A DNA stretch of 64,000 nt from contig NZ_CP051630.1 of NCBI RefSeq assembly GCF_012848855.1, positions 847,501 to 911,500 on the forward strand, read 5' to 3'. Below the pieces are notes generated by a model that ran no database searches, was not told the DNA's origin, and worked only from the letters and a program-made list of their open reading frames with translations. The position numbers and the translations under genes are program-made. The stretch comes from Pyruvatibacter mobilis. Its GTDB lineage: Bacteria > Pseudomonadota > Alphaproteobacteria > CGMCC-115125. Positions 38,523 to 63,683 of the stretch are shown piece by piece; position 1 is the first letter of the stretch, and every line of letters starts with the position of its first letter.

Positions 38523-38649
38523 CCCTCCGGCTTGACCCGAGGGTCTACTCTCGGGGCTGCTTGCCTCAGGGTTGGTTGGGGCTGGCGCGATGCTGCGCAG
38601 GTTTGAGCCAAGAGCGGATGCGAGTGGGCCCTCCGGTCAAGCCGGAGGG
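38523..38649. repeat. REPIN-like element 1 (inverted REP pair)
   Basis: Two 21-bp REP palindromes (arms CCCTCCGG / CCGGAGGG, loop CTTGA) at 38523-38543 (diverged) and 38629-38649 (perfect) face each other across about 85 bp. Read on the minus strand, the inner ends carry CCCACTCGC and GAGAGTAGA, as in the three other copies. It fills the 38420-38784 gap, which has no gene. Confidence 0.75.
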
Positions 38650-46836: not shown

Positions 46837-46964
46837 CCCTCCGGCTTGACCGGAGGGCCCACTCGCCTTTGCTGCTGGGCATGGTGTCTTTGGCTCTTGC
46901 TCCGCCGGTCCCATGCGCTGCGGCAGGCGGCACCAAGAGTAGACCCTCCGGTCAAGCCGGAGGG
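46837..46964. repeat. REPIN-like element 2
   Basis: Two REP palindromes (arms CCCTCCGG / CCGGAGGG) at 46837-46857 and 46944-46964 in inverted order, 128 bp overall. The inner ends are CCCACTCGC and AGAGTAGA. It lies in the 46768-47159 gap between the channel gene and icd. Confidence 0.85.
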
Positions 46965-46989
46965 ATACGGGGTGGGGGGTGACACGTCA

Positions 46990-47144
46990 CCTCTCCCCTT
47001 GCGGGAGAGGTCGGTGCGCGAGCACCGGGTGAGGGGTGGCTGCGCAAGCAACTGGTGGGGCATTGGTGGGGCGAGAGGGGTCTCCCCCTCACCCTCCCAC
47101 CGCTTTGCGGCGGGCCCCTCCCTCTCCCGTTGAGGGAGAGGGGG
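46990..47144. repeat. Composite palindromic element B1
   Basis: It starts with the hairpin CCTCTCCCC / GGGAGAGG, continues CGGTGCGCGAGCACCGGGTG, and ends with CCCTCTCCC / GGGAGAGGG. The same modules recur at 51.8, 52.1 and 61.4 kb. It directly abuts the 3' end of icd and may serve as its terminator. Confidence 0.75.
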
Positions 47145-50911: not shown

Positions 50912-51529
50912 ATGTCCAAGCGCACGAGCGCCAAATACAAGATCGACCGCCGCATGGGCGAGAACATCTGGGGCCGCGCCAAGAGCCCGTTCAACACCCG
51001 GTCCTACGGCCCCGGTGAGCACGGCCAGCGCCGCCGCTCCAAGCTCTCCGACTTCGGCATCCAGCTTCGCGCCAAGCAGAAGCTGAAGGGCTATTACGGC
51101 GACGTCACCGAAAAGCAGTTCCGCTCCACCTATGAGGAAGCGGTGCGCATGCGCGGTGACACCGGCGAGAACATGATCGGCCTCCTGGAGCGCCGCCTGG
51201 ATGCGGTCGTTTACCGCGCCAAGTTCGTGCCGACCGTGTTCGCGGCCCGTCAGTTCGTGAATCACGGCCACATCAAGGTCAATGGCCAGCGCGTCACCAT
51301 CCCGTCCTACCGGGTCAAGGAAGGCGACGTCATCGAGGTCAAGGACAAGTCCAAGCAGCTCGCTCTCGTGCTTGAAGCCGTCGGCTCGCCGGAGCGTGAC
51401 GTGCCGGACTATCTGGACGTCGACCACAACAAGATGACCGCCACCTATGTGCGCGTGCCCCAGCTGATGGACGTGCCGTACCCGGTGTCGATGGAACCCA
51501 ACCTGGTGGTCGAGTTCTACTCCCGCTAA
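50912..51529 (+). CDS. rpsD: 30S ribosomal protein S4
   Basis: 205 residues. Binds 16S rRNA early in 30S assembly. [37 protein letters not shown] and the S4 RNA-binding domain ([20 protein letters not shown]) are diagnostic. The start at 50912 matches S4 proteins; a 29-residue longer reading overlaps the leader hairpin. It is a single-gene unit with its own promoter and terminator, as usual in alphaproteobacteria. Confidence 0.98.
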
Positions 51530-51552
51530 GGCCGGTTTCCAGACCAGACGAG

Positions 51553-51584
51553 AAGGGCCGCTCCCGAGGGAGCGGCCCTTTTTC
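51553..51584 (+). terminator. Terminator after rpsD
   Basis: An 11-bp perfect stem (GGGCCGCTCCC / GGGAGCGGCCC), 2-base loop, followed by TTTTT, 25 bases after the stop. Confidence 0.93.
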
Positions 51585-51667
51585 GTTTGGGGCATTGCAC
51601 AGGATACGCGATGTGCTGGGGGTGGGGATTATGTTTCGCGGCATGTCCCGGCCGCGCCGCCCATGGG

Positions 51668-51688
51668 CCCTCCGGTCAAGCCGGAGGG
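51668..51688. repeat. Single REP palindrome
   Basis: Perfect arms CCCTCCGG / CCGGAGGG around TCAAG, the reverse of the CTTGA loop. It lies at the left of the 51530-52444 repeat-filled gap, which has no gene. Confidence 0.8.
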
Positions 51689-51709
51689 ACAGCGATTTTT
51701 TTTACTTAC

Positions 51710-52430
51710 CCACCAACCCACCACCGCTCTCCCTCGGCTTGACCGGAGGGGCTATCTGAGAGGCAGCATGGTTCTTTTGGTGAAGCTGAACGTGGTGGCG
51801 GCGTCAGCATCATTTTCCCTCTCCCCCTGCGGGAGAGGGAGGGGCCCGCGTGCGTCAGCACGTGGGAGGGTGAGGGGGGCTGAGGCTACGGGATGTCTCA
51901 CCCGCGGCAGCCCTCACCCGGCGCTGGCGCGCCGACCTCTCCCACAGGGAGAGGTTAAGGCTCTGCCAGGGCGAGAGAGATCCTCCGGTCAAGCCGGAGG
52001 AATAGCGGCTATTACATGAGCCGCCCAACCCACCACCGCTCTCCCTCAGGCTTGACCGGAGGGTCTATCCGAGGGGCGGGTGTCTCTCCCGGTCGAGCCG
52101 GGGAATGGTGCTGTGACTTGGGGAAATCCCCTCTCCCCCTGCGGGAGAGGGAGGGGCCCGCGTGCGTCAGCACGTGGGAGGGTGAGGGGGGCTGAGGATG
52201 CGGGATGTCTCACCCGCGGCAGCCCTCACCCGGCGCTGGCGCGCCGACCTCTCCCACAGGGAGAGGTTAAGGCTCTGTCAGGGTGAGAGAGATCCTCCGG
52301 TCAAGCCGGAGGAATAGCGGCTATTACATGAGCCGCCCAACCCACCACCGCTTTCCCTCCGGCTTGACCGGAGGGTCTATCCGAGAGGCTGCATGGCTCT
52401 TCCGGTTGAACCGGGGAATGGTGTGTTGTG
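51710..52430. repeat. 312-bp tandem duplication of intergenic palindromes (about 2.3 units)
   Basis: The block from 51817 recurs almost unchanged from 52129 (period 312 bp, a handful of base differences over about 250 bp). Each unit holds a B-type composite element (CCCTCTCCC / GGGAGAGGG, ending CCTCTCCC / GGGAGAGG) and two REP palindromes, followed by GAATAGCGGCTATTACATGA. Partial units flank both sides. It runs up to the 3' end of grxD. Confidence 0.88.
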
Positions 52431-52444
52431 AGTGAGGCGCGTGC

Positions 52445-52792
52445 TTACGCGTCGGCCTGCTGTTCCATGGGGATGTTCTTGCCGGCGAGGAAGTCGCGCA
52501 GTTCGCCTTCTTCGAACATCTCGCGGAGGATGTCGCAGCCGCCGACGAATTCGCCCTTCACGTAGAGCTGGGGGATGGTCGGCCAGTTGGAAAACTGCTT
52601 GATGCCCTCGCGCACATCCATGTCCTCCAGCACGTTCACCGAGGTGAACTTGACGCCCAGATAGCTGAGGATCTGGACGACAGTGGAGGAGAAGCCGCAT
52701 TGAGGGAAGACGGGCGTGCCCTTCATGAAGAGCACCACGTCGTCGCTCTTGATGGCGCTCTGGATGATATCTAGTGCCGGAATGTCGCTCAT
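52445..52792 (-). CDS. grxD: Monothiol glutaredoxin, Grx4 family
   Basis: 115 residues. Carries and delivers [2Fe-2S] clusters. The active site is CGFS (in [18 protein letters not shown]), followed by [20 protein letters not shown], the glutathione and TVP-like site. It lies 21 bp after bolA in the same direction; Grx4 and BolA proteins form cluster-bridged heterodimers. Confidence 0.95.
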
Positions 52793-52813: not shown

Positions 52814-53047
52814 TTACTTGGGCGCGGATGTCTGCAGGGCCAGGGCGTGCAGCTCGCCGCCCATGCGGCCCTGGAGCGCGTCATAGACGAGCTTGTGCTG
52901 CTGCACGCGGGTCAGGCCGGCGAAGGCTGGGCTCACCACATTGGCGGAATAGTGATCGCCGTCACCGGCGAGGTCCTCGATGGTTACCTCGGCGTCCGGC
53001 AGGGCCTCGCGGATCAGCTTTTCGATCTCGGTTGCTGCCATCGGCAT
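52814..53047 (-). CDS. bolA: BolA-family protein
   Basis: 77 residues. The core has IREALPDAEVTIEDLAGDGD, HYSANVVSPAFAGLTRVQQH and KLVYDALQGRMGGELHAL, the class II KH-like BolA fold. The start at 53047 has AGGAG eight bases upstream; an unneeded 29-residue longer reading exists. Paired with grxD for iron-sulfur handling. It follows purL by 53 bp. Confidence 0.93.
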   Translation of the reverse strand: MPMAATEIEKLIREALPDAEVTIEDLAGDGDHYSANVVSPAFAGLTRVQQHKLVYDALQGRMGGELHALALQTSAPK

Positions 53048-61252: not shown

Positions 61253-61382
61253 CCCTCCGGCTTGACCGGAGGGCCCACTCGCATTCGCTGTCGGGCACAG
61301 GGGTGGCGGTGCTTGCTGTGCCGTGTCCGCGCATGCTGCGGTAGGCGGCTCCGAGAGCAGACCCTCCGGTCAAGCCGGAGGG
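61253..61382. repeat. REPIN-like element 3
   Basis: Two perfect REP palindromes (61253-61273 and 61362-61382) in inverted order, 130 bp overall, inner ends CCCACTCGC and GAGAGCAGA. It starts 20 bp after the MarR-like gene, in the 61233-61596 gap without a gene. Confidence 0.87.
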
Positions 61383-61411
61383 ATACGGAGAAGGGGGCAG
61401 TCCTAATGTCA

Positions 61412-61572
61412 CCTCTCCCCTTGCGGGAGAGGTCGGTGCGTGAGCACCGGGTGAGGGGGTGAGCCCATCCCCCCGCACCACCGTCAGAGATCCATTACCA
61501 CCGCTGCCGCCCCCCCACCCTCCTACGGGCTTGCGCCCGCAGGCCCCTCCCACTCCCGCAAGGGGAGAGGGG
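61412..61572. repeat. Composite palindromic element B2
   Basis: CCTCTCCCC / GGGAGAGG hairpin, then CGGTGCGTGAGCACCGGGTG, a spacer, CCACCCTCCTACGGGC, and a closing CACTCCCGC / GGGAGAGG-type stem. Same plan as B1. It immediately follows REPIN 3. Confidence 0.72.
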
Positions 61573-63354: not shown

Positions 63355-63484
63355 CCCTCCGGCTTGACCGGAGGGCCCACTCGCATCTGCTGTTGGGCAC
63401 GGCATTCGCGGCCCCTGCCGTGCCGCAGCCACGCGCGCTGCGGCAGGCTGATTTGAGAGTAGACCCTCCGGTCAAGTCGGAGGG
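63355..63484. repeat. REPIN-like element 4
   Basis: REP palindromes at 63355-63375 (perfect) and 63464-63484 (one mismatch), inverted, 130 bp overall, inner ends CCCACTCGC and GAGAGTAGA. It lies in the 63270-63713 gap. Confidence 0.87.
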
Positions 63485-63536
63485 ATGCGGGAGAGGGGGC
63501 GCAGCGGGACACACCTTTTTCCCACACCCATGTGTC

Positions 63537-63619
63537 ATTCCGCGACTTGATCGCGGAATCCAGGGCGACCAACTCATGCGGTGCCGCGTGGCCCTGGACC
63601 CCGCGATCAAGTCGCGGGG
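63537..63619. repeat. Inverted pair of a second REP family (family C)
   Basis: ATTCCGCGA / TCGCGGAAT around CTTGA (63537-63559) and CCCCGCGA / TCGCGGGG around TCAAG (63599-63619) face each other. The sequence between can pair further (CCAGGGC / GCCCTGG), so the whole 83 bp can fold as one hairpin. The arms differ from the CCCTCCGG family but the loop is the same. Confidence 0.8.
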
Positions 63620-63662
63620 TGACATGGGGAGGGCTAACACCCCACCCCAAACAAACCGCCTT

Positions 63663-63683
63663 CCCTCCGGCTCGACCGGAGGG
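63663..63683. repeat. Single REP palindrome (loop variant CTCGA)
   Basis: Arms CCCTCCGG / CCGGAGGG with loop CTCGA instead of CTTGA, 30 bp from the 3' end of the phosphatase gene. Confidence 0.8.

Follow-up and report, generated by a model that had tools for sequence, protein, structure and literature searches.

The tandem array between the convergent genes rpsD and grxD of Pyruvatibacter mobilis is a known kind of repetitive DNA, BIME-like in its makeup and partly built from a little-described variant of a triplex-type motif. We consider it probable that the array is a local composite in which two dispersed palindrome families, here termed A and B, are joined, that it grew by recombination or slippage, and that it is tolerated at the 3′ ends of its neighbors. 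This reading draws on direct observation of the array's anatomy, of the dispersal of both families, of their preference for convergent 3′ ends, and of the kinship of the two B modules in the array, the closest of 378 B pairs. The window, by which we mean the whole stretch of 64,000 nucleotides that was analyzed, covers bases 847,501-911,500 of the genome.

Anatomy and uneven similarity of the array

The sequence-only reading of this locus had described a tandem array between rpsD and grxD with a period of 312 and about 2.3 copies, and TRF recovered it at 51713-52423 with 88% matches. Read from the rpsD side, the order is A pair 1, spacer 1, B1, A pair 2, spacer 2, B2, A pair 3, and the end of grxD, with three inverted pairs of the A palindrome alternating with two 141-bp B modules (Table 1). 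The strong hairpins claimed for each unit are likewise predicted, as many inverted repeats occur in the array and the predicted fold of B1 comprises five hairpins, its free energy lying 5.2 sd lower than in dinucleotide shuffles. The description of the unit as REP and composite elements also holds, both parts being dispersed palindromic repeats that occur largely in inverted pairs. On the grxD strand, A pair 3 is predicted to form a single long hairpin, and 72 nt separate the grxD stop from the end of the last A palindrome. A search of Rfam returned no match at or above the gathering score in 51400-52600. Elsewhere in the window, four further element clusters were observed (38525-38647, 46839-47141, 61255-61571, and 63357-63681), with a full B at 46839 and at 61255.

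Table 1. Features of the rpsD-grxD locus (window positions) and copies of two further repeats (positions within the named stretches)
Feature	Coordinates	Strand	Basis
rpsD (ribosomal protein S4), left convergent neighbor	50912..51529	+	ORF; Pfam Ribosomal_S4 and S4
Intrinsic-terminator-like hairpin and T run 3′ of rpsD, outside the array	51553..51585	+	13-nt perfect inverted repeat; terminator scan
A pair 1	51670..51748	.	A palindromes 51670-51686 (+) and 51732-51748 (-), 45 nt apart
Spacer 1, A pair 1 to B1	51765..51816	.	Alignment against spacer 2
B module 1 (B1)	51817..51957	+	Five predicted hairpins, two inverted arms
A pair 2	51983..52061	.	Inverted repeats, A pattern
Spacer 2, A pair 2 to B2	52078..52128	.	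Partial likeness to spacer 3
B module 2 (B2)	52129..52269	+	139/141 identical to B1
A pair 3, closest to grxD 3′ end	52295..52373	.	Inverted repeats, A pattern
grxD (glutaredoxin), right convergent neighbor	52445..52792	-	ORF; Pfam Glutaredoxin
bolA, upstream of grxD, same strand	52814..53047	-	ORF; Pfam BolA
Copies of the ~0.7-0.9 kb repeat	L102 731-1442, L109 1660-2571, L136 857-1812		
B copies with ~30-nt insertion	L104 near 1670, L105 near 5198, L107 near 6530, L122 near 8297		

The units do not resemble each other evenly along their length. B1 and B2 are identical at 139 of 141 positions, the link together with the left half of the A pair that follows it at 65 of 67, and the right half of the A pair at 49 of 53 columns. 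Spacers 1 and 2 agree in 31 of 63 aligned columns, for which 358 of 500 shuffles do equally well, and the corresponding figures are 37 of 55 columns (0 of 500 shuffles) for spacers 2 and 3 and 33 of 58 columns (24 of 500 shuffles) for spacers 1 and 3. The left halves of A pairs 1 and 2 have diverged as well (42 of 74 columns). Because similarity is so uneven across the parts of the unit, the alignments point to a mosaic containing one recently amplified or homogenized cassette of ~260 bp (B, link, and A pair). The earlier claim that the copies show few differences is thus correct for the B modules, the link, and the A half and fails for spacers 1 and 2 and for the left half of A pair 1; the claim of a recent duplication likewise stands only for the cassette (B, link, and A half) and not for the rest of the unit. 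A single uniform unequal crossover was rejected, since spacer 2 is not like spacer 1, and spacers this uneven would not fit one clean event of that kind.

Repeats of the length of the array unit can break short-read assemblies, and the array could in principle be an artifact in which the assembler duplicated a single unit. However, the copies differ, with spacers 1 and 2 no more alike than shuffles and with the A pairs and B carrying differences of their own, and the genome consists of a single contig (3,333,914 bases). The uneven divergence between the copies argues against simple assembly duplication, and we regard an origin of this sort as very improbable.

Comparison of B copies across the genome extends this picture. 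Among 378 B pairs compared (median identity 0.89), B1 and B2, 312 bp apart, have the top normalized score (0.97), followed by the pairs 2406869/2408008 (0.88, 1139 bp apart) and 942447/942722 (0.87, 275 bp apart). All three are local and mutual nearest neighbors, and the best distant pair scores 0.82. Since the three most similar B pairs are all local, local amplification recurs in this genome. The scores also show that not all B kinship is local, as three of the six mutual nearest-neighbor pairs lie far apart (19 to 520 kb) and the neighboring pairs 919159/921049, 588038/591181, and 616028/619797 are not mutual nearest neighbors. For the array itself, growth would have proceeded by homologous recombination or replication slippage between neighboring copies, which may have amplified or homogenized the B-link-A cassette while sparing the spacer ahead of B. 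The copy number of the array may also vary, as the sequence-only reading proposed.

Two dispersed palindrome families

The A family, CCCTCCGGTCAAGCCGGAGGG, occurs mostly in inverted pairs; an A pair consists of two CTCCGGTCAAGCCGGAG copies in opposite orientation, 45 nt apart, and the A hairpin combines a stem of 8 bp with a loop of 5 nt. At up to two mismatches the genome holds 163 matches (82 forward and 81 reverse), against 6 (2 forward and 4 reverse) for the reversed pattern used as control, and the congeners hold 47 (G001), 7 (G002), and 36 (G003). A strand bias apparent among the matches listed, which lack one minus-strand copy of the array, was rejected on the whole counts. Of 43 close A neighbors, 42 are inverted, and the spacings cluster at ~35, 42-45, and 92 nt. 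Three nucleotides before CTCCGG, 73 of 111 A copies carry the tetranucleotide RTRG, 37 carry GTAG or GTGG, and 17 carry exact GTAG, and the CGTC tag was found in none of the 111 copies when 12 nt on either side were checked. These features recall GTAG REPs in the 8-bp stem, the 5-nt loop, the RTRG that two thirds of copies carry at a fixed position, and the inverted dimers of both orientations at the three spacings given above. The difference lies in the tag, exact GTAG being present in 17 of 111 A copies whereas PMC3733652 reports it in >90% of members of most families, and degenerate tags in some. On sequence grounds, A thus appears to resemble GTAG-type REPs with a degenerate tag. All three A pairs of the array locus also contain an exact 16-mer, CCAACCCACCACCGCT; elsewhere in the 35 stretches from which B copies were collected (see below) it has 5 matches, each with 3 mismatches, of which three adjoin an A.

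B elements are ~140-160 bp long and comprise an inverted pair of arms. An arm runs CCTCTCCC-loop-GGGAGAGG, a small inner hairpin, and then GGGTGAGGG, and the second arm is its inverted equivalent; loop 2 of the arms is 28 or ~15 nt long and holds a hairpin. Pairing between GGGTGAGGG and the CCCTCACCC of the opposite arm is also possible and is preferred in the predicted fold. In a pairing test on 24 of 28 copies (four with a loop insertion were left out), 95.3% of cells were paired against 93.9 in shuffles, and 13 cells carried two-sided changes against a shuffle mean of 3.7. Four pairs showed such changes, all within loop-2 hairpins, arm 1 accounting for three and arm 2 for one, and further pair types (16 against 15.4 in shuffles; 228/500) were not above shuffles. 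These changes support the predicted loop-2 hairpins without proving them, since relatedness among the copies raises scores of this type.

The B-hairpin pattern (up to two mismatches) has 56 matches in the genome (28 forward and 28 reverse) against none for the control and none in the three congeners (completeness 81% for G002); it counts hairpins and not copies, because the head hairpin and the tail hairpin of an element both match and a few sites do so on both strands. When the 35 stretches covering all listed B-hairpin matches were searched with a profile, 28 near-full-length B copies were obtained, and an A (up to three mismatches) lies within 166 nt of all 28 and within 99 nt of 25. When a 412-base query from the array was used, the congeners aligned, among the matches listed, only over the A parts. 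In 4 of the 28 B copies, an extra palindromic insertion of ~30 nt sits in the loop of the first hairpin, a repeat inside a repeat.

The arms of B were compared with TM_ECO, CCCTCNCCC-N3-6-GGGNGAGGG-N3-GGGNGAGGG, a motif reported from 262 proteobacterial genomes (PMC4666352). B has the same 9-nt stems and G-rich third segment, and the published account also describes inverted pairs of two triplex motif types in E. coli, as in B; the difference is that loop 2 of B holds a hairpin of ~15 or 28 nt where the published loop has 3 nt. Loops of 1-6 nt were allowed in that survey of intrastrand triplexes (PMC4666352) and of 0-10 nt in an earlier paper. B is, by its sequence, a variant of the TM_ECO-type motif that the two earlier surveys were not built to find. 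Using the exact pattern, where the published search permits one mismatch, TM_ECO matches occur in 57 of 385 alphaproteobacterial genomes, and the long-loop form (loop 2 of 12-42 nt) occurs in 75 of the 385. In this genome there is 1 exact match against 53 long-loop matches, and the three congeners have 0 and 0. The array contains no exact TM_ECO match; the sole one in the genome (642880-642914; L108 1581-1615) sits between two half-B elements. Among 92 long-loop strings from the 21 top-listed genomes, 77 form five or more pairs within loop 2, against 430 of 920 shuffles, and 63 do not exceed the 5th percentile of shuffles of the same string. The B-hairpin pattern is patchy in the class (43 of 385 genomes). 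In an open-access literature search, no description of the alphaproteobacterial long-loop form was found among the matches listed, which include an Enterobacter paper containing the motif strings (PMC10845240).

This likeness opens another route to the array, in which intrastrand triplexes of the B arms would stall replication and local duplication would result, the proposed form being a CCCTCTCCC hairpin whose antiparallel purine third strand is GGGTGAGGG. The B stems equal those of TM_ECO, at whose loci variation among 56 E. coli strains is described as exceeding that at control sites (PMC4666352); by hand check, the third strand fits all nine triplets (G.GC, A.AT, and T.AT), and the three closest B pairs in the genome are each local. 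However, loop 2 is 28 or ~15 nt long in B and 3 nt in TM_ECO, the predicted fold favors pairing of GGGTGAGGG with CCCTCACCC over its use as a third strand, and many C-variant stems among the matches listed go with GGGAGAGGG, which leaves one mismatched triplet by hand check. The stems are nearly invariant, so covariation is uninformative on the third strand. We therefore regard an array produced by triplex-driven instability as unlikely and retain the composite grown by recombination or slippage.

Convergent gene ends and the locus in relatives

The position of the elements relative to genes was assessed in the 35 stretches, where 29 of 54 element clusters lie between convergent genes, 16 between tandem, and 8 between divergent genes, with 1 at a stretch edge. 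None of the 54 lies inside a filtered ORF, the gene calls being home-made with a codon-position filter and the unfiltered longest ORFs overlapping several elements. Convergent neighbors thus flank 29 of 53 clusters, compared with 6 of 53 among the element-free gene pairs of the window (Fisher p 3e-6), an effect whose size is rough because the stretches were picked by element matches and the baseline is one 64-kb window. Along the chromosome, elements among the matches listed concentrate at ~526-945 kb, 1.40-1.57, 2.07-2.60, and 3.0-3.15 Mb, with few between.

These observations bear on the proposal that the array affects the 3′ ends of grxD-bolA, which is plausible from position because the last A lies so close to the grxD stop and the clusters favor convergent 3′ ends. 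A simple terminator scan gave one match, at rpsD, and none on the grxD strand; with 1.5 matches expected in shuffles, its outcome is hardly informative. As rpsD has its own terminator-like hairpin ahead of the array, grxD would be the likelier beneficiary; the hairpins may protect or terminate the 3′ end of its transcript, and perhaps that of rpsD too. The repeats would persist since 3′-3′ intergenic space tolerates them.

The same interval differs in content among relatives, in which the rpsD orthologues near grxD are 92-93% identical. In G001, G003, and a MAG contig (L011), a TetR-type regulator and a zinc-type alcohol dehydrogenase, named by Pfam in G001, lie between rpsD and grxD (gap coordinates L145 533-2884, L146 555-3044, and L011 1729-3515, against 51530-52444 in the window), and G001 and G003 have an additional coding sequence adjoining grxD. 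The G001 dehydrogenase is 89-92% identical to those of G003 and L011, and no close relative of it is present in the window's genome, where the best match reaches 34%. In some Parvibaculum loci (e.g., L015, L019, L022, and L032) the gap measures only ~100 bases. The site was therefore not simply filled by the array: the regulator and dehydrogenase genes were either lost here or gained in the others. Loss of the pair through recombination between A copies was considered and found unsupported, as no A copy (up to three mismatches) occurs in the rpsD-grxD stretches of the three relatives.

Spread of the families and relation to BIMEs

Dispersed repeats of this kind might also owe their spread to transposition, with A and B as non-autonomous elements that are mobilized in trans, the transposase responsible having been lost or belonging to an unrecognized family. 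The 56 B-hairpin matches against none in the three congeners, the patchy occurrence of the pattern in the class, and the inversion of close A neighbors, which is like that of REP dimers, are all in keeping with such mobility. Against it, the REP transposase domain Y1_Tnp (PF01797) was found in none of the four genomes of the genus by a search for that domain, which was positive in 5 of 14 control genomes. By hand tally from the listings, Y1_Tnp occurs in 1 of 11 genomes with at least 10 B-hairpin matches and in 7 of 22 with at least 10 long-loop motifs, compared with 72 of 385 alphaproteobacterial genomes overall, and inspection of the B flank alignment by eye revealed no target-site duplication. 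By these tallies, Y1_Tnp is not needed for B-type repeats to be abundant, and there may be a weak link between the domain and the long-loop-rich set of genomes. Movement in trans is accordingly possible and, in our judgment, doubtful.

A further repeat of ~0.7-0.9 kb, ~92% identical among its copies, was observed at 531, 682, and 3016 kb with A pairs, two of the copies having a B tail. The four ORFs between the A pairs at these sites were considered as mobility genes and set aside, having no Pfam match at E 0.1.

The composite reading places the array beside BIMEs, which PMC3733652 describes as inverted-pair palindromes that are extragenic and sometimes reiterated in tandem with flanking DNA. 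The features that define a BIME (palindromes in alternating orientation, regular spacing, dispersal, and extragenic position) are present here, with 42 of 43 close A neighbors inverted and 0 of 54 clusters inside a filtered ORF. They differ from BIMEs in that two unrelated palindrome families alternate and in that the four genomes of the genus have no REP-transposase domain. BIMEs of E. coli bind gyrase, IHF, or DNA polymerase I.

A more tentative interpretation concerns B itself. It could belong to an unnamed triplex-capable class in which loop 2 is a hairpin free in sequence and conserved in pairing, and which triggers local tandem amplification. Such a class, lying outside the loop limits of the two surveys, might be scattered in the Alphaproteobacteria (75 of 385 genomes), might expand in single species without a recognizable REP transposase, and might settle beside the older REP-like A family at convergent gene ends; each of these parts we hold as a possibility and not as the expected outcome.

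For many bacteria, roles in recombination and at the ends of transcripts have been proposed for REP-like repeats. With 1 strict match against 53 long-loop matches in this genome, short-loop counts of triplex-type repeats can miss nearly all of the copies present. The burst of B here and its absence in three congeners, one of them 81% complete, make its spread testable by comparing close strains, and this bears on how REP-like families without a transposase spread.
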